Source: Flavobacteriaceae bacterium
GTDB lineage: Bacteria; Bacteroidota; Bacteroidia; Flavobacteriales; Weeksellaceae
Reading direction: 5' to 3'
DNA length: 34,024 nt
NCBI GenBank assembly: GCA_018260565.1
Contig: JAGLAZ010000016.1
Location: forward strand, 1 to 34,024
Positions 22,304-27,270 of this stretch are shown here, piece after piece. The notes beneath the pieces are model-generated. The model made no database searches. It worked only from the letters and a program-made list of their open reading frames with translations, and was not told the DNA's origin. Numbering within the stretch: the first letter of the stretch is position 1; each line of letters starts with the position of its first letter. The position numbers and the translations under genes were made by a program.

Positions 22304-22335
22304 TAAAAAATCCGTCTCAGTTAAAAGACGGATTT
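22304..22335 (-). terminator. Terminator of the lipoprotein gene
   Basis: Perfect 10-bp stem AAATCCGTCT (22309-22318) with AGACGGATTT (22326-22335), loop 7 nt. On the minus strand it is followed by a T tract, ending 8 nt before the next start codon (22301). Confidence 0.75.
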
Positions 22336-22345
22336 GCTTATAATT

Positions 22346-22750
22346 TTAATTCTTCACCAATCTTAAATCCACAACATCAGCAGGTGCACTTTCCTTATAC
22401 ATGGAGACTTCTGCATTAGTACCCGTCATGGTTTTTATGTTAATTATAGACTTACCATAAGTAGGTGAAGTGGTTACCACTTGTGAATTGTTATCGTATT
22501 TATAGGTTCCACCATCAGGGGTTCCCATATAATTTGTGGTATACGTTCCATCGCTTTTTAGATTAATATAATAATTGAGCATCTGCATAGACTGCCATGC
22601 ACCGGCAGCATTTTTATATTCATTCATTTTCCAATTACCAACAACATCATATTTAGGCTGTGGGGTTGTGGAAGTAGCTTCATCTCTTGAACAACTCGTT
22701 ACAGAAACCGCTGTTAAAGCCAAAAAAGAGAAAAATAATATTTTTTTCAT
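22346..22750 (-). CDS. Lipocalin-like surface lipoprotein (moron gene)
   Basis: 134 residues. MKKILFFSFLALTAVSVTSC gives a lipoprotein signal with lipobox TSC (Cys20). Residues SRDEA after Cys carry Asp-Glu at +3/+4, similar to the lipoprotein export signal that sends Bacteroidota lipoproteins to the cell surface. The rest is a small beta-barrel of lipocalin style (VVGNWKMNEYKNAAGAW, LKSDGTYTTNYMGTPDGGTYKY). It has its own promoter (22767-22774) and terminator, the design of a moron gene expressed from the prophage. A surface shield or host-fitness role is inferred. Confidence 0.7.
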   Translation of the reverse strand: MKKILFFSFLALTAVSVTSCSRDEATSTTPQPKYDVVGNWKMNEYKNAAGAWQSMQMLNYYINLKSDGTYTTNYMGTPDGGTYKYDNNSQVVTTSPTYGKSIINIKTMTGTNAEVSMYKESAPADVVDLRLVKN

Positions 22751-22783: not shown

Positions 22784-22969
22784 TTAATTGTTTGATGATT
22801 TTTCATCCTCCAATCTTACAAGATGCTCAATAAGATGGGTTTTAGTCATTTGCTTTCGCTCTGCTACTCTACTCAGTATTTCTAAAAAAGACTCGGTAGT
22901 ACGCATAGAAAATCCAACTTTTTTAATTAAAATTTTATTATTTGTTGATTCTTTGTCTGGTTTTTTCAT
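22784..22969 (-). CDS. Ribbon-helix-helix DNA-binding protein
   Basis: 61 residues. The stretch KILIKKVGFSMRTTESFLEILSRVAERKQMTKTHLIEHLVR fits the RHH fold: a strand of alternating residues, a helix, a turn (KQMTKTHL) and a second helix. Proteins of this kind bind DNA as dimers, inserting the ribbon into the major groove at short palindromes. The start ATG 22969 follows the -7 box by four nucleotides (near-leaderless). Its promoter and the divergent one at 23094-23125 each hold TGTATATACA, so it is probably autoregulating and controls the antirepressor operon. Confidence 0.7.
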   Translation of the reverse strand: MKKPDKESTNNKILIKKVGFSMRTTESFLEILSRVAERKQMTKTHLIEHLVRLEDEKSSNN

Positions 22970-22973
22970 GCAG

Positions 22974-22981
22974 CAAAGATA
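22974..22981 (-). promoter_or_regulatory. Promoter of the RHH gene
   Basis: TATCTTTG on the minus strand (TAnnTTTG), four nt before ATG 22969. The palindrome TGTATATACA (22990-22999) lies in the spacer upstream of it. The -33 region has TTACC instead of TTG. Confidence 0.55.
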
Positions 22982-22989
22982 TAATTTTA

Positions 22990-23111
22990 TGTATATACAC
23001 GGGTAAATACCTATGTTAATGATTGTATATACCTATGTATACAAATTATTCTCGTTGATAATCAACAACTTATAACATTTTTTATTAAAAGTCTTGTTTT
23101 ATGTATATACA
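22990..23111. promoter_or_regulatory. Operator array (TGTATATACA family)
   Basis: TGTATATACA palindromes at 22990-22999 and 23102-23111, TGTATATAC at 23024-23032 and TGTATACA at 23036-23043. TACCTATGT also repeats at 23008-23016 and 23030-23038 (22 bp apart). The two full copies sit inside the spacers of the divergent RHH and DUF2693 promoters, where a bound protein would block polymerase. The RHH protein next door is the natural candidate. Confidence 0.65.
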
Positions 23112-23125
23112 CTGGTATATATTTG
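23094..23125 (+). promoter_or_regulatory. Promoter of the antirepressor operon
   Basis: TTG at 23094-23096, 21 nt, then TATATTTG at 23118-23125, a full Bacteroidota-type promoter. The palindrome TGTATATACA (23102-23111) is in the spacer. ATG 23145 is 20 nt downstream of the box. Confidence 0.7.
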
Positions 23126-23144
23126 CATCATAATAATACAACAC

Positions 23145-23459
23145 ATGACAACATTTAGAAGCACAGTATTTCAGAGAGCATATAGCTTAATGAGAAAAAC
23201 AGGTAAAAGTTTTGCGGTTTGTCTTTCAAAGGCTTGGCAGCTTTACAGGCTCGCAAAGAAAATGCGAAATGATATAGTTGAGTTTACCTATGAGAAAGCA
23301 GACGGCACACTTAGAAAGGCGGTAGGCACTTTAAAAGATGTAGGGCAATTTGTAAAAGGTACTGGCAACCCTGCGACCGACAAAGTATTTCACTACTGGG
23401 ATTTAGAGCAGGCAGGTTTTAGATGCTTTAAAATAGAAAATTTAGTAACAATCAAATAA
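23145..23459 (+). CDS. DUF2693 SH3-like barrel protein
   Basis: 104 residues from ATG 23145; an upstream in-frame ATG at 23094 falls on the promoter. The N-terminal part is basic and helical (RAYSLMRKTGKSFAVCLSKAWQLYRL). The C-terminal part is the DUF2693 pattern: IVEFTYEKADGTLRKAVGTL, a loop, then FHYWDLEQAGFRCFKIENLV. This family is common in Bacteroidota phages and plasmids, function unknown. First gene of a five-gene plus-strand operon ending with the antirepressor. Confidence 0.75.
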   Translation: MTTFRSTVFQRAYSLMRKTGKSFAVCLSKAWQLYRLAKKMRNDIVEFTYEKADGTLRKAVGTLKDVGQFVKGTGNPATDKVFHYWDLEQAGFRCFKIENLVTIK

Positions 23460-23467
23460 TCATAAAA

Positions 23468-23800
23468 ATGAAACTATCAAACAGAGACAGCCTCGTTGTG
23501 TCAATATTAAAGGATGCAATCATATTCCAAAGAATTTCCAACGCTATGTTTAGAGCGGTTAACGCCTTCAATAATGGCATGAAGGATTTTGAGCCTGAAC
23601 AGCACTATTCCGGACTTTCCAACGCCTTGCAAGTCTTAGGTATAGATGATAGCCATGAAATCAGAGACGAATTAGTCGAGGTGTTTCTACAAGACCTCGA
23701 AAAGGATAGCGAAGTTTCTGCCGATGCGGCAGCTTTAGACATCTTTTACAGATGGGCATTTCTAATCAAAGATTTTTATACCACAAAATTATCAGCGTAA
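23468..23800 (+). CDS. Unknown helical protein, paralogue A
   Basis: 110 residues, helical. It is a clear paralogue of the protein at 24026-24358: both have a D-A-[IV]-I-F-Q-R-I-S segment near residue 16, an N-A-L motif in the middle, D-E-L about residue 67 and end in [KL]-SA. Function unknown. It lies between the DUF2693 gene and a 70-residue gene, in an operon under a promoter with an RHH-type operator. Confidence 0.6.
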   Translation: MKLSNRDSLVVSILKDAIIFQRISNAMFRAVNAFNNGMKDFEPEQHYSGLSNALQVLGIDDSHEIRDELVEVFLQDLEKDSEVSADAAALDIFYRWAFLIKDFYTTKLSA

Positions 23801-23802
23801 CC

Positions 23803-24015
23803 ATGACAGCATCAGCATCTAACACCTCAAGAAACCGTAATAAACTGCACAAAATTGTGCAACTCTCTAAAAAGGATAAACAAGCTTTAGAATTTGAACC
23901 ACAGGCTGACACTTTAATTAAAGCTAAAGAAAGAGCGCAAAAGGCATACAGGTTTATAGTAGAGAACGGGCTTCTACACGAATTTACAGACTACATCAAT
24001 TACAAAACAGCTTAA
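23803..24015 (+). CDS. Small basic unknown protein
   Basis: 70 residues from ATG 23803; an earlier in-frame ATG at 23752 overlaps the upstream gene too far to be favoured. Basic N-terminal part (SNTSRNRNKLHKIVQLSKKDK) and helical remainder (KAKERAQKAYRFIVENGLLHEF). It is flanked by the two paralogues A and B. No family recognised. Confidence 0.55.
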   Translation: MTASASNTSRNRNKLHKIVQLSKKDKQALEFEPQADTLIKAKERAQKAYRFIVENGLLHEFTDYINYKTA

Positions 24016-24025
24016 AAATATACAA

Positions 24026-24358
24026 ATGACACTTTCCGAAAACAATCAAATGGCAATTAGAGTATTAGCAGATGCCGTGATATTTCAAAGAATATCTTAC
24101 TCCCTTCAAAGAGCCGCAAGTGCTTTAAATTTAGCAAACGGCGAAGAATTTATCCCAGAACGAGGGTACAAAGGCGTAAATAATGCCCTTGAAATGATTG
24201 GCGTAACTGACCCCCACCTAAAAGATGAATTATTTAGCATTTTCGCATCAACTACCTATGATGAATGGGATGTAGACCATGATGAACTGGCCAATAAAAT
24301 TTTTATGGACTGGATTCTTCAAATCAAAGAGCATTACACATCTAAAAAATCCGCATAG
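24026..24358 (+). CDS. Unknown helical protein, paralogue B
   Basis: 110 residues, same length as paralogue A at 23468, with shared motifs DAVIFQRIS, NALEMIG, KDELFSIF and an end IKEHYTSKKSA. The C-terminal half is more acidic (DEWDVDHDELANK). It is separated from the antirepressor gene by two nucleotides, so probably co-translated. Function unknown. Confidence 0.6.
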   Translation: MTLSENNQMAIRVLADAVIFQRISYSLQRAASALNLANGEEFIPERGYKGVNNALEMIGVTDPHLKDELFSIFASTTYDEWDVDHDELANKIFMDWILQIKEHYTSKKSA

Positions 24359-24360
24359 TT

Positions 24361-25080
24361 ATGGAAGAGTTAATAAAAATAACAGAGCAAAACGGCGCAA
24401 AAGCCGTAAGCGCAAGAGAATTGTATGATTTTTTGGGATACAATAAAGCGCATTGGGCAAAATGGTATCGTAAAAATATTGAAGAGAATGAATTTGCTTT
24501 TGAGAATGTTGATTTTCAGACCTTCACCCTTGATGTGAACGGTAATTCTACCAAAGATTTTGCCTTATCAATTGACTTTGCAAAAAAGCTATCAATGATG
24601 GCTCGAACTGAAAAGGGTGAAGCAGCCCGCCAATATTTCATTCAGAAAGAAAAGGAGGCCTTGCAGAAGTCTACATTTGAAATACCCCAATCCTTTGCAG
24701 AGGCTTTGCGTTTGGCGAGTGAACAGGCAGAGCGTATAGAATTACAGGCGATAGAGCTGAAAAAACAGGCTCCAAAAATAGAATATGTAGATACGGTTTT
24801 ACAATCCAGCAGCACCTATAACATCAACCAAATAGCAAAGGAATTGGGAATGTCTGCGGTTACTTTGAACAAAAGGTTAAATGATATGGGTGTACAATAC
24901 AAGCAGAACGGCTCTTGGCTATTGTATCATAAATACCAAGACAAAGGCTATACAAAAACAAAAACGCATACCTACACAGATAGCCACGGCAATACCCAAA
25001 GTAATATGCAGACCGTCTGGACAGAAGAGGGCAGGCTATTTATCCACCATCTTTTTAAAGAGAAGCAAAAGAGCGCATAA
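24361..25080 (+). CDS. AntA/KilAC-domain phage antirepressor
   Basis: 239 residues. Residues ~1-100 are an AntA/AntB-type domain (SARELYDFLGYNKAHWAKWY, then DFALSIDFAKKLSMMARTEKG). Residues ~140-235 are a KilAC DNA-binding domain (SSSTYNINQIAKELGMSAVTLNKRLNDMG, then KQNGSWLLYHKYQDKGYTKTKTHTY). Antirepressors of this layout relieve phage repressors, usually by protein contact, to trigger the lytic programme. Last gene of the plus-strand operon with a strong terminator at 25086-25110. The likely target is the XRE repressor at 1900-2169. Confidence 0.85.
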   Translation: MEELIKITEQNGAKAVSARELYDFLGYNKAHWAKWYRKNIEENEFAFENVDFQTFTLDVNGNSTKDFALSIDFAKKLSMMARTEKGEAARQYFIQKEKEALQKSTFEIPQSFAEALRLASEQAERIELQAIELKKQAPKIEYVDTVLQSSSTYNINQIAKELGMSAVTLNKRLNDMGVQYKQNGSWLLYHKYQDKGYTKTKTHTYTDSHGNTQSNMQTVWTEEGRLFIHHLFKEKQKSA

Positions 25081-25085
25081 AGACA

Positions 25086-25110
25086 AATCCCCGGTAATTC
25101 GGGGATTTTT
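25086..25110 (+). terminator. Intrinsic terminator of the antirepressor operon
   Basis: Perfect 8-bp stem AATCCCCG (25086-25093) with CGGGGATT (25100-25107), 6-nt loop, then T residues. It starts 6 nt after the stop codon. On the minus strand the T run is weaker. Confidence 0.8.
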
Positions 25111-26211: not shown

Positions 26212-27270
26212 CTAATTCAGAAACTTACGATTGTTTTCTATAAATTCAGGCTTCCGTTTCCAGTTCTTCATCTTTTCAGCATTTTCATTTACCCAGTTGG
26301 TAAATTGAGGAGGCAAATCACCAACATAATTAGCAGATTTTTCGGGCGGTTCGTTACGCCCTGAATTAATCTCTTTTATTAATTCTGAATTTGTCTTTAA
26401 AATGCTGGTTCTGAAACATTTACATCCCACATGCCATTTACTCCATTTAAAATCTTTGCGGTACCTACCTTTTAACTCGTCGCAGATGTCGTAGATTTTA
26501 TGCGATGGCGACAAATGTATTTCCACCCCCACCACGTCATTATTCTGCTCTAATCTTAGCTGTTCCGCTTCACGATAGGCCGTATTAATCTCATTGGCAG
26601 CAAGCCTCAAGGCGTTCTTATGTGCCGAGCGATACACACCCTGCCCGGGCTTGTATGCTTTAGCCGCTTTGGAAAGTTTCAGGTTCCCATGCTTATCTCT
26701 TACCTTTCTGTATAAAGCCTCCGGATTGTTTAAAAACTTCTTAATATCTCTTGCTAATTGTTGCGCTGAAATACCGTCCTTTAACGCTAAATCAATTGCT
26801 AATTCAATGTTTTCTTGCGCCTGTTTCCCAATATCCCACACACGCTCTGAAATGGTAAATTTACCAGCTTTCCTGTGCTGAAAAGCGTCTAATGCGGTTT
26901 GATTATGGCTTTGTTGTGCAAGCTTCTTTAACTCTCTTGTATATGCTTCAGGTTTAAGTCTGTTTTTTATTTTATCAAGTGTAGCCTGTTTGACAGCATT
27001 TGCCTTTAGATTGGCTAACTCCCATTCTTCTGCATTACCGATTTTGATGAGCGCCGTTAAATCTTTGATGTACTTTAAAAATATATCATCTGCATACTTT
27101 TGAAGATTATTATGCTTTTTAAACTGAAATAATTCTTCACTTAATTGCGCTTTAACAGCTATGACAGAGATACTTTGGATTAAATCTTCAAAGATTTTTT
27201 CCATGCGCTTCAAGTAAAGGTTTAACCTTCTGCGATGCCTTCCGTCAAAATCGTCAGTAATATCTTTCAC
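26212..27270 (-). CDS. MuF-like (SPP1 gp7) head morphogenesis protein
   Basis: 352 residues, mostly helical. The conserved MuF region is visible near 230-300: LAANEINTAYREAEQLRLEQ, then PSHKIYDICDELKGRYRKDF and WSKWHVGCKCFRTSIL. That matches the family's R..N.AY.EA and H..C.C plan. It follows the portal gene as in SPP1. It is packaged in small copy numbers and assists head assembly and DNA ejection in known members. No toxin domain is fused. Confidence 0.8.
   Translation of the reverse strand: MKDITDDFDGRHRRRLNLYLKRMEKIFEDLIQSISVIAVKAQLSEELFQFKKHNNLQKYADDIFLKYIKDLTALIKIGNAEEWELANLKANAVKQATLDKIKNRLKPEAYTRELKKLAQQSHNQTALDAFQHRKAGKFTISERVWDIGKQAQENIELAIDLALKDGISAQQLARDIKKFLNNPEALYRKVRDKHGNLKLSKAAKAYKPGQGVYRSAHKNALRLAANEINTAYREAEQLRLEQNNDVVGVEIHLSPSHKIYDICDELKGRYRKDFKWSKWHVGCKCFRTSILKTNSELIKEINSGRNEPPEKSANYVGDLPPQFTNWVNENAEKMKNWKRKPEFIENNRKFLN

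Follow-up and report, generated by a model that had tools for sequence, protein, structure and literature searches.

A probable secondary-immunity cassette with a putative ribbon-helix-helix repressor in a RAP44-like Bacteroidetes siphophage

A compact gene group with an antirepressor operon at its core probably forms a self-contained unit of secondary immunity in a RAP44-like siphophage of the Bacteroidetes, held by a putative ribbon-helix-helix (RHH) repressor via three predicted operators, O1 to O3. The window, which is the whole stretch of 34,024 nucleotides analysed here, represents the entire contig C38 of a siphophage related to the Riemerella phage RAP44. This explanation was chosen on the basis of gene order, predicted operators, promoter boxes, terminators, and the replacement of the repressor in its slot by an HTH repressor.

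Organisation of the cassette

The cassette consists of a lipoprotein gene and the RHH gene, followed by a divergent operon, and is enclosed by two hairpins. The RHH gene and the antirepressor reading frame are both present as described in the original prediction. The following features were assigned:

22308-22335, bidirectional terminator-like hairpin at the left cassette edge
22346-22750, minus strand, lipocalin-like lipoprotein behind the RHH gene (weak profile match)
22784-22969, minus strand, 61-aa putative ribbon-helix-helix repressor (sub-threshold CopG-type similarity)
23145-23459, plus strand, WYL_2 protein (PF10902), at the head of the operon (E 1.4e-21)
23468-23800, plus strand, p110a, 110 aa, function unassigned, paralogue of p110b
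23803-24015, plus strand, 70-aa protein (p70), open reading frame
24026-24358, plus strand, p110b, 110 aa, 40% identity to p110a
24361-25080, plus strand, antirepressor with AntA (PF08346) and KilAC (PF03374) domains (Pfam; PHROG 63, E 2.8e-59)
25085-25108, bidirectional terminator-like hairpin at the right cassette edge

The operon thus reads WYL_2, p110, p70, p110, antirepressor. Both Pfam scores of the antirepressor exceed the curated cut-offs, with 62.9 bits for PF08346 and 118.8 bits for PF03374. The cassette lies on the strand opposite to the flanking late genes, and it is not followed by genes for recombination or replication. A search of the cassette against Rfam gave sub-threshold matches only. 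The p110 gene is duplicated around the 70-aa gene, and its homologues adjoin antirepressors in several phages. A second regulator, of the XRE type, is encoded at the left end of the contig (1900-2178, minus strand).

The putative RHH repressor

The 61-aa protein has no significant match in Pfam, PHROGs, NCBIfam, or the PDB, and a PF01402 search of its own genome did not report the frame. Homologues were found neither in 320 genomes of the family nor in IMG/VR, INPHARED, or the GTDB representative species genomes. When 11,740 open reading frames were compared with a profile of four CopG-type sequences, the protein ranked first with an E-value of 0.1, above Arc of phage P22, and one member of the profile gave an E-value of 0.05. 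The pattern of an N-terminal strand and two helices in the protein can be aligned with a PF01402 protein from the prophage G199, which is itself a bona fide member of the family (E 4e-7 to the model). The alignment score is 57, compared to 25.3 ± 4.8 for shuffled sequences (P<1e-4); BLASTP returned no alignment. In the shuffle test, a P-value of 0.02 was obtained for Arc, and no similarity to Mnt was detected. A single-sequence monomer prediction with AlphaFold2 yielded one helix with a mean pLDDT of 85.6 and a pTM of 0.48, which is uninformative without an alignment.

Judged by these sequence comparisons, the protein likely belongs to the RHH repressors. The frame is the best match among the 11,740 to the CopG-type profile, but a significant match to a curated model is absent.

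Predicted operators and promoters in the divergent gap

The gap between the RHH gene and the operon comprises 175 bp. The original prediction had placed the 10-mer TGTATATACA in the spacers of both divergent promoters. The exact copies at 22990-22999 and 23102-23111 were recovered, and they are located in the two spacers. Only three exact copies exist in the 1.87-Mb genome, two of which lie in the gap and the third within a coding gene on contig C7. If up to two mismatches are allowed, the window contains 30 sites, compared to 21.3 ± 5.2 expected, so that enrichment is not clear; for this reason, weight was placed only on the exact copies and the extended dyad.

The real repeat unit is an 18-bp dyad, TATATAC-N4-GTATATA, present in three copies in the gap. 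Promoters were assigned by the flavobacterial sigma-A -7 box, TAnnTTTG at positions -12 to -5 (PMC9723704). A sigma-70 scan is uninformative for this phylum. The gap contains exactly one TAnnTTTG per strand, and both face outward. The predicted elements are arranged as follows:

22974-22981, minus strand, predicted -7 box of the RHH gene promoter, TATCTTTG
22992-23009, predicted operator O1, TATATACACGGGTAAATA, one mismatch, at positions of about -40 to -23 in the RHH promoter
23026-23043, predicted operator O2, TATATACCTATGTATACA, one mismatch, between both promoters
23104-23121, predicted operator O3, TATATACACTGGTATATA, no mismatches, in the spacer and the first four bases of the operon -7 box
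23118-23125, plus strand, predicted -7 box of the antirepressor operon promoter, TATATTTG

The start-to-start distances between O1, O2, and O3 are 34 and 78 bp. O1 and O3 each overlap one of the two divergent promoters. Relative to the operon promoter, O3 extends from approximately -26 to -9, with its second half covering the beginning of the -7 box. The partial copies originally noted at 23024 and 23036 are present in the sequence but are not separate copies, since both are halves of O2. The -7 box of the RHH gene is positioned 4 nt upstream of the ATG, which puts the predicted transcription start at about 22969, the A of the start codon itself. The RHH mRNA is therefore predicted to be leaderless. 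The same distance of 4 nt between the repressor -7 box and the ATG is found in the HTH-controlled cassettes of G132 and G115.

Four sites genome-wide match the dyad with no more than one mismatch, three of them in the gap. At two mismatches there is no excess (24 sites genome-wide vs 26 for a reversed control), hence the signal resides in the near-perfect dyad sites. The repeats could simply reflect an AT-rich promoter or represent DNA elements on which no repressor acts, as the GC content of the gap is 24%. This is very unlikely, given that three dyads arose in none of 20,000 composition-preserving dinucleotide shuffles of the gap. Likewise, the exact 16-bp direct repeat of the gap was reached in none of 5,000 shuffles. 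The observation of repeats at both divergent promoters is thus not only confirmed but stronger than first stated.

It is improbable that a different protein, for example the HTH protein encoded at 1900-2178 or a host regulator, recognises the sites and that the small RHH-like frame is incidental. The weakness of the RHH assignment and the presence of the second XRE protein in the window speak for such a binder. On the other hand, the sites cluster only at this gene and the divergent operon promoter, as would be the case for a local autoregulator. In addition, G115 encodes its homologue of the HTH protein (1900-2178) approximately 16 kb away from its cassette, whose control region is devoid of the operator. 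An RHH protein that acts on its own control region is the preferred reading. The operator pattern had no match in IMG/VR, and at up to one mismatch it was absent from 1.62 Mb of related loci without the RHH gene.

Related cassettes in other phages and prophages

The prophage G199 and the window are collinear to either side of the cassette, from a PAPS-reductase-like gene to the tail genes. In its slot between the lipoprotein and the WYL_2/p110/antirepressor genes, an HTH_3 repressor replaces the RHH gene. The lipoprotein homologue occupies the same place in G199 and also adjoins the antirepressor cassette in RAP44-like prophages. An HTH repressor is likewise part of the cassette in G132, G115, G005/G008, and IMG/VR contigs. 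The HTH-controlled cassettes (G199, G132, G115, and G008; L118-L122 from IMG/VR) resemble that of the window in operon genes, position, divergent repressor, and outward-facing TAnnTTTG promoters. They differ in their Cro/CI-type HTH repressor and in their control regions, which do not contain TATATAC-N4-GTATATA.

In G115, the same cassette is found in an unrelated phage backbone. RAP44 lacks a cassette at the insertion point seen in the window and carries a related one elsewhere, without a repressor gene. Taken together, the cassette appears to move. The RAP44-type operon of Riemerella phages shares with the window a small gene followed by an AntA/KilAC antirepressor, the lipoprotein neighbour, and the orientation opposite to the late genes; instead of a repressor gene, however, it has a structured leader RNA upstream. 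Between G132 and G115, the slot repressors share 27% identity, in contrast to 88% for the adjoining WYL_2 proteins. This contrast and the fold swap in the slot would match selection for new immunity specificity.

Over-represented dyads were also found in HTH cassettes, with three of seven regions clearly exceeding the shuffles (G199, G128, and L142). A general three-operator rule for these cassettes was dropped, since the remaining regions apart from L140 are not significant. In the HTH-controlled antirepressor locus L140:4945-5215, ACATTATAATGT occurs in three copies, one of which runs up to the start of the operon -7 box TATCTTTG; the layout is similar to that of the window, while the operator word is different. 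A further observation in G199 concerns its head morphogenesis protein (L030:1681-3771), which contains an extra internal segment of approximately 350 aa, starting with Cys and ending with ...WGSNC. The segment looks like an intein and is absent from the homologue in the window (26212-27270).

A probable second switch resembling P22 immI

In G199, a separate HTH repressor is divergent from the recombination/replication (early) operon, approximately 20 kb from the cassette. With two repressors in this collinear prophage, the cassette repressor is not the sole repressor there. The early region and main repressor of the phage itself were found neither on the contig of the window nor in the rest of the assembly; on the other contigs, the search for the main repressor gave only a weak match, which lies in chromosomal surroundings, and a RAP44-like exonuclease was not found.

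The RHH protein might instead be the main lysogeny repressor of the phage, having displaced an HTH repressor, with no separate primary switch. The CI-like HTH proteins in the same slot of relatives, the lack of another complete early switch on the contig, and the many other KilAC-type antirepressors that adjoin a divergent HTH pair resembling a main switch would agree with such a role. It is nevertheless unlikely, considering that G199 has a slot repressor as well as a second one divergent from its early operon. Moreover, the cassette is located in the late region with no recombination or replication genes after it, and in RAP44 the integrase and XRE/repressor genes are found in a separate region. 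The preferred reading remains a second switch, as originally proposed. This proposal is supported in part, since it fits the anatomy of predicted operators at both promoters, an antirepressor in the operon, and two repressors in G199.

The immI region of Salmonella phage P22 is described as a region of secondary immunity with a modulating effect on the primary region (PMC11016777). It is situated between gene 16 and gene 9, with sieA and mnt transcribed leftward, arc and ant rightward, and the operators in between. Several features are shared with the window: a repressor gene that diverges from the operon of the antirepressor, operators (predicted operator-like sites in the window) at the promoters of the shared region, a location among late genes, and a cell-envelope gene behind the repressor, namely sieA in P22 and the lipoprotein in the window. 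A separate candidate primary region is seen in the collinear G199. The parts themselves differ. The P22 antirepressor consists of P22_AR_N/C, that of the window of AntA and KilAC, which are different Pfam families without similarity. Mnt and Arc match PF03869 strongly, whereas the 61-aa protein does not. Furthermore, the operon in the window has WYL_2 and p110 genes and no Arc gene, no sar-like RNA was seen, and the P22 operators differ in sequence. Because the antirepressor is unrelated and the PF03869 match is missing, the cassette is regarded as analogous to immI, and homology is not claimed. The two repressors of G199 support a second switch with an immI-like layout.

Proposed mechanism

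In a lysogen, the RHH protein would occupy O1, O2, and O3, probably as two dimers per 18-bp site. Binding at O3 would block the promoter of the WYL_2-p110-p70-p110-antirepressor operon, and binding at O1 would repress the RHH gene itself. Entry of the DNA into a cell that lacks the RHH protein, or a drop in the level of this protein, would allow the operon to fire. The antirepressor would then disable an HTH repressor, which may be the main one of the phage itself or that of a resident prophage. Once the RHH protein accumulates, the expression window would close. Binding, repression, autoregulation, the antirepressor target, the response at infection, and independence from the main repressor are all inferred from the arrangement of genes and sites. 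Since a repressor of 61 aa has no room for a sensor domain, arrival of the DNA or dilution may be a likelier means of control than a ligand.

On a broader scale, it can be tentatively suggested that Bacteroidetes phages carry a mobile AntA/KilAC secondary-immunity cassette with exchangeable controllers, converging on the logic of P22 immI. These controllers would mostly be HTH repressors; an RHH-type orphan would take their place in the window and, in the RAP44 branch, an antisense-like RNA with a pseudoknot. In the literature searched for antirepressor cassettes with an RHH protein or from Bacteroidetes, this arrangement is not described. The cassette offers a repressor-operator system that is compact and testable, from a phylum whose phage regulation has received little study, and it shows a P22-immI-like layout built of unrelated antirepressor parts. 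A further suggestion is that, within such a cassette, a repressor of one fold can be exchanged for one of another while the adjoining genes are retained, which would be expected under selection for new specificities by heteroimmunity.

A pseudoknotted RNA upstream of RAP44-type antirepressor operons

Directly upstream of the antirepressor operon, RAP44-type phages and the prophages G309, G310, and G311 contain a pseudoknotted RNA of approximately 160 nt, which may exceed the cassette of the window in novelty. None was seen in the window. The RNA was located at eight loci:

L069:13722-13881 (RAP44)
L064:4103-4266
L202:1224-1387
L199:132-291
L094:6419-6578
L095:7398-7557, minus strand
L032:4976-5139
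L099:7404-7569, minus strand

The RNA has its own TATATTTG promoter and a T-run. In the alignment, 98.5% of the pair cells are paired, and double changes occur in 20 of 41 pairs. The covariation is 0.531, compared to 0.181 for shuffled alignments (reached in 0 of 500) and at most 0.074 when the structure is slid. One of the sequences served as the template for drawing the structure, so the slid control favours it; the count of double changes is not explained in this way. No Rfam family matches the RNA significantly.

In all eight sequences, which represent five variants, the 5' arm is a copy of the first 12-13 nt of the downstream reading frame, beginning at the TG of its ATG. The 3' arm is consequently antisense to that start. 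The RNA is a candidate antisense or attenuator RNA, or alternatively a mobile RNA with target duplication. The gene preceding the antirepressor shows a near-identical N-terminal peptide (TTAPTANNSS) and DNA, with the rest of the protein differing. Genes of this type are present in both antirepressor operons of RAP44 (L069:13884-14213 and L069:30087-30407, the latter on the minus strand) and in L095, L094, and L099.
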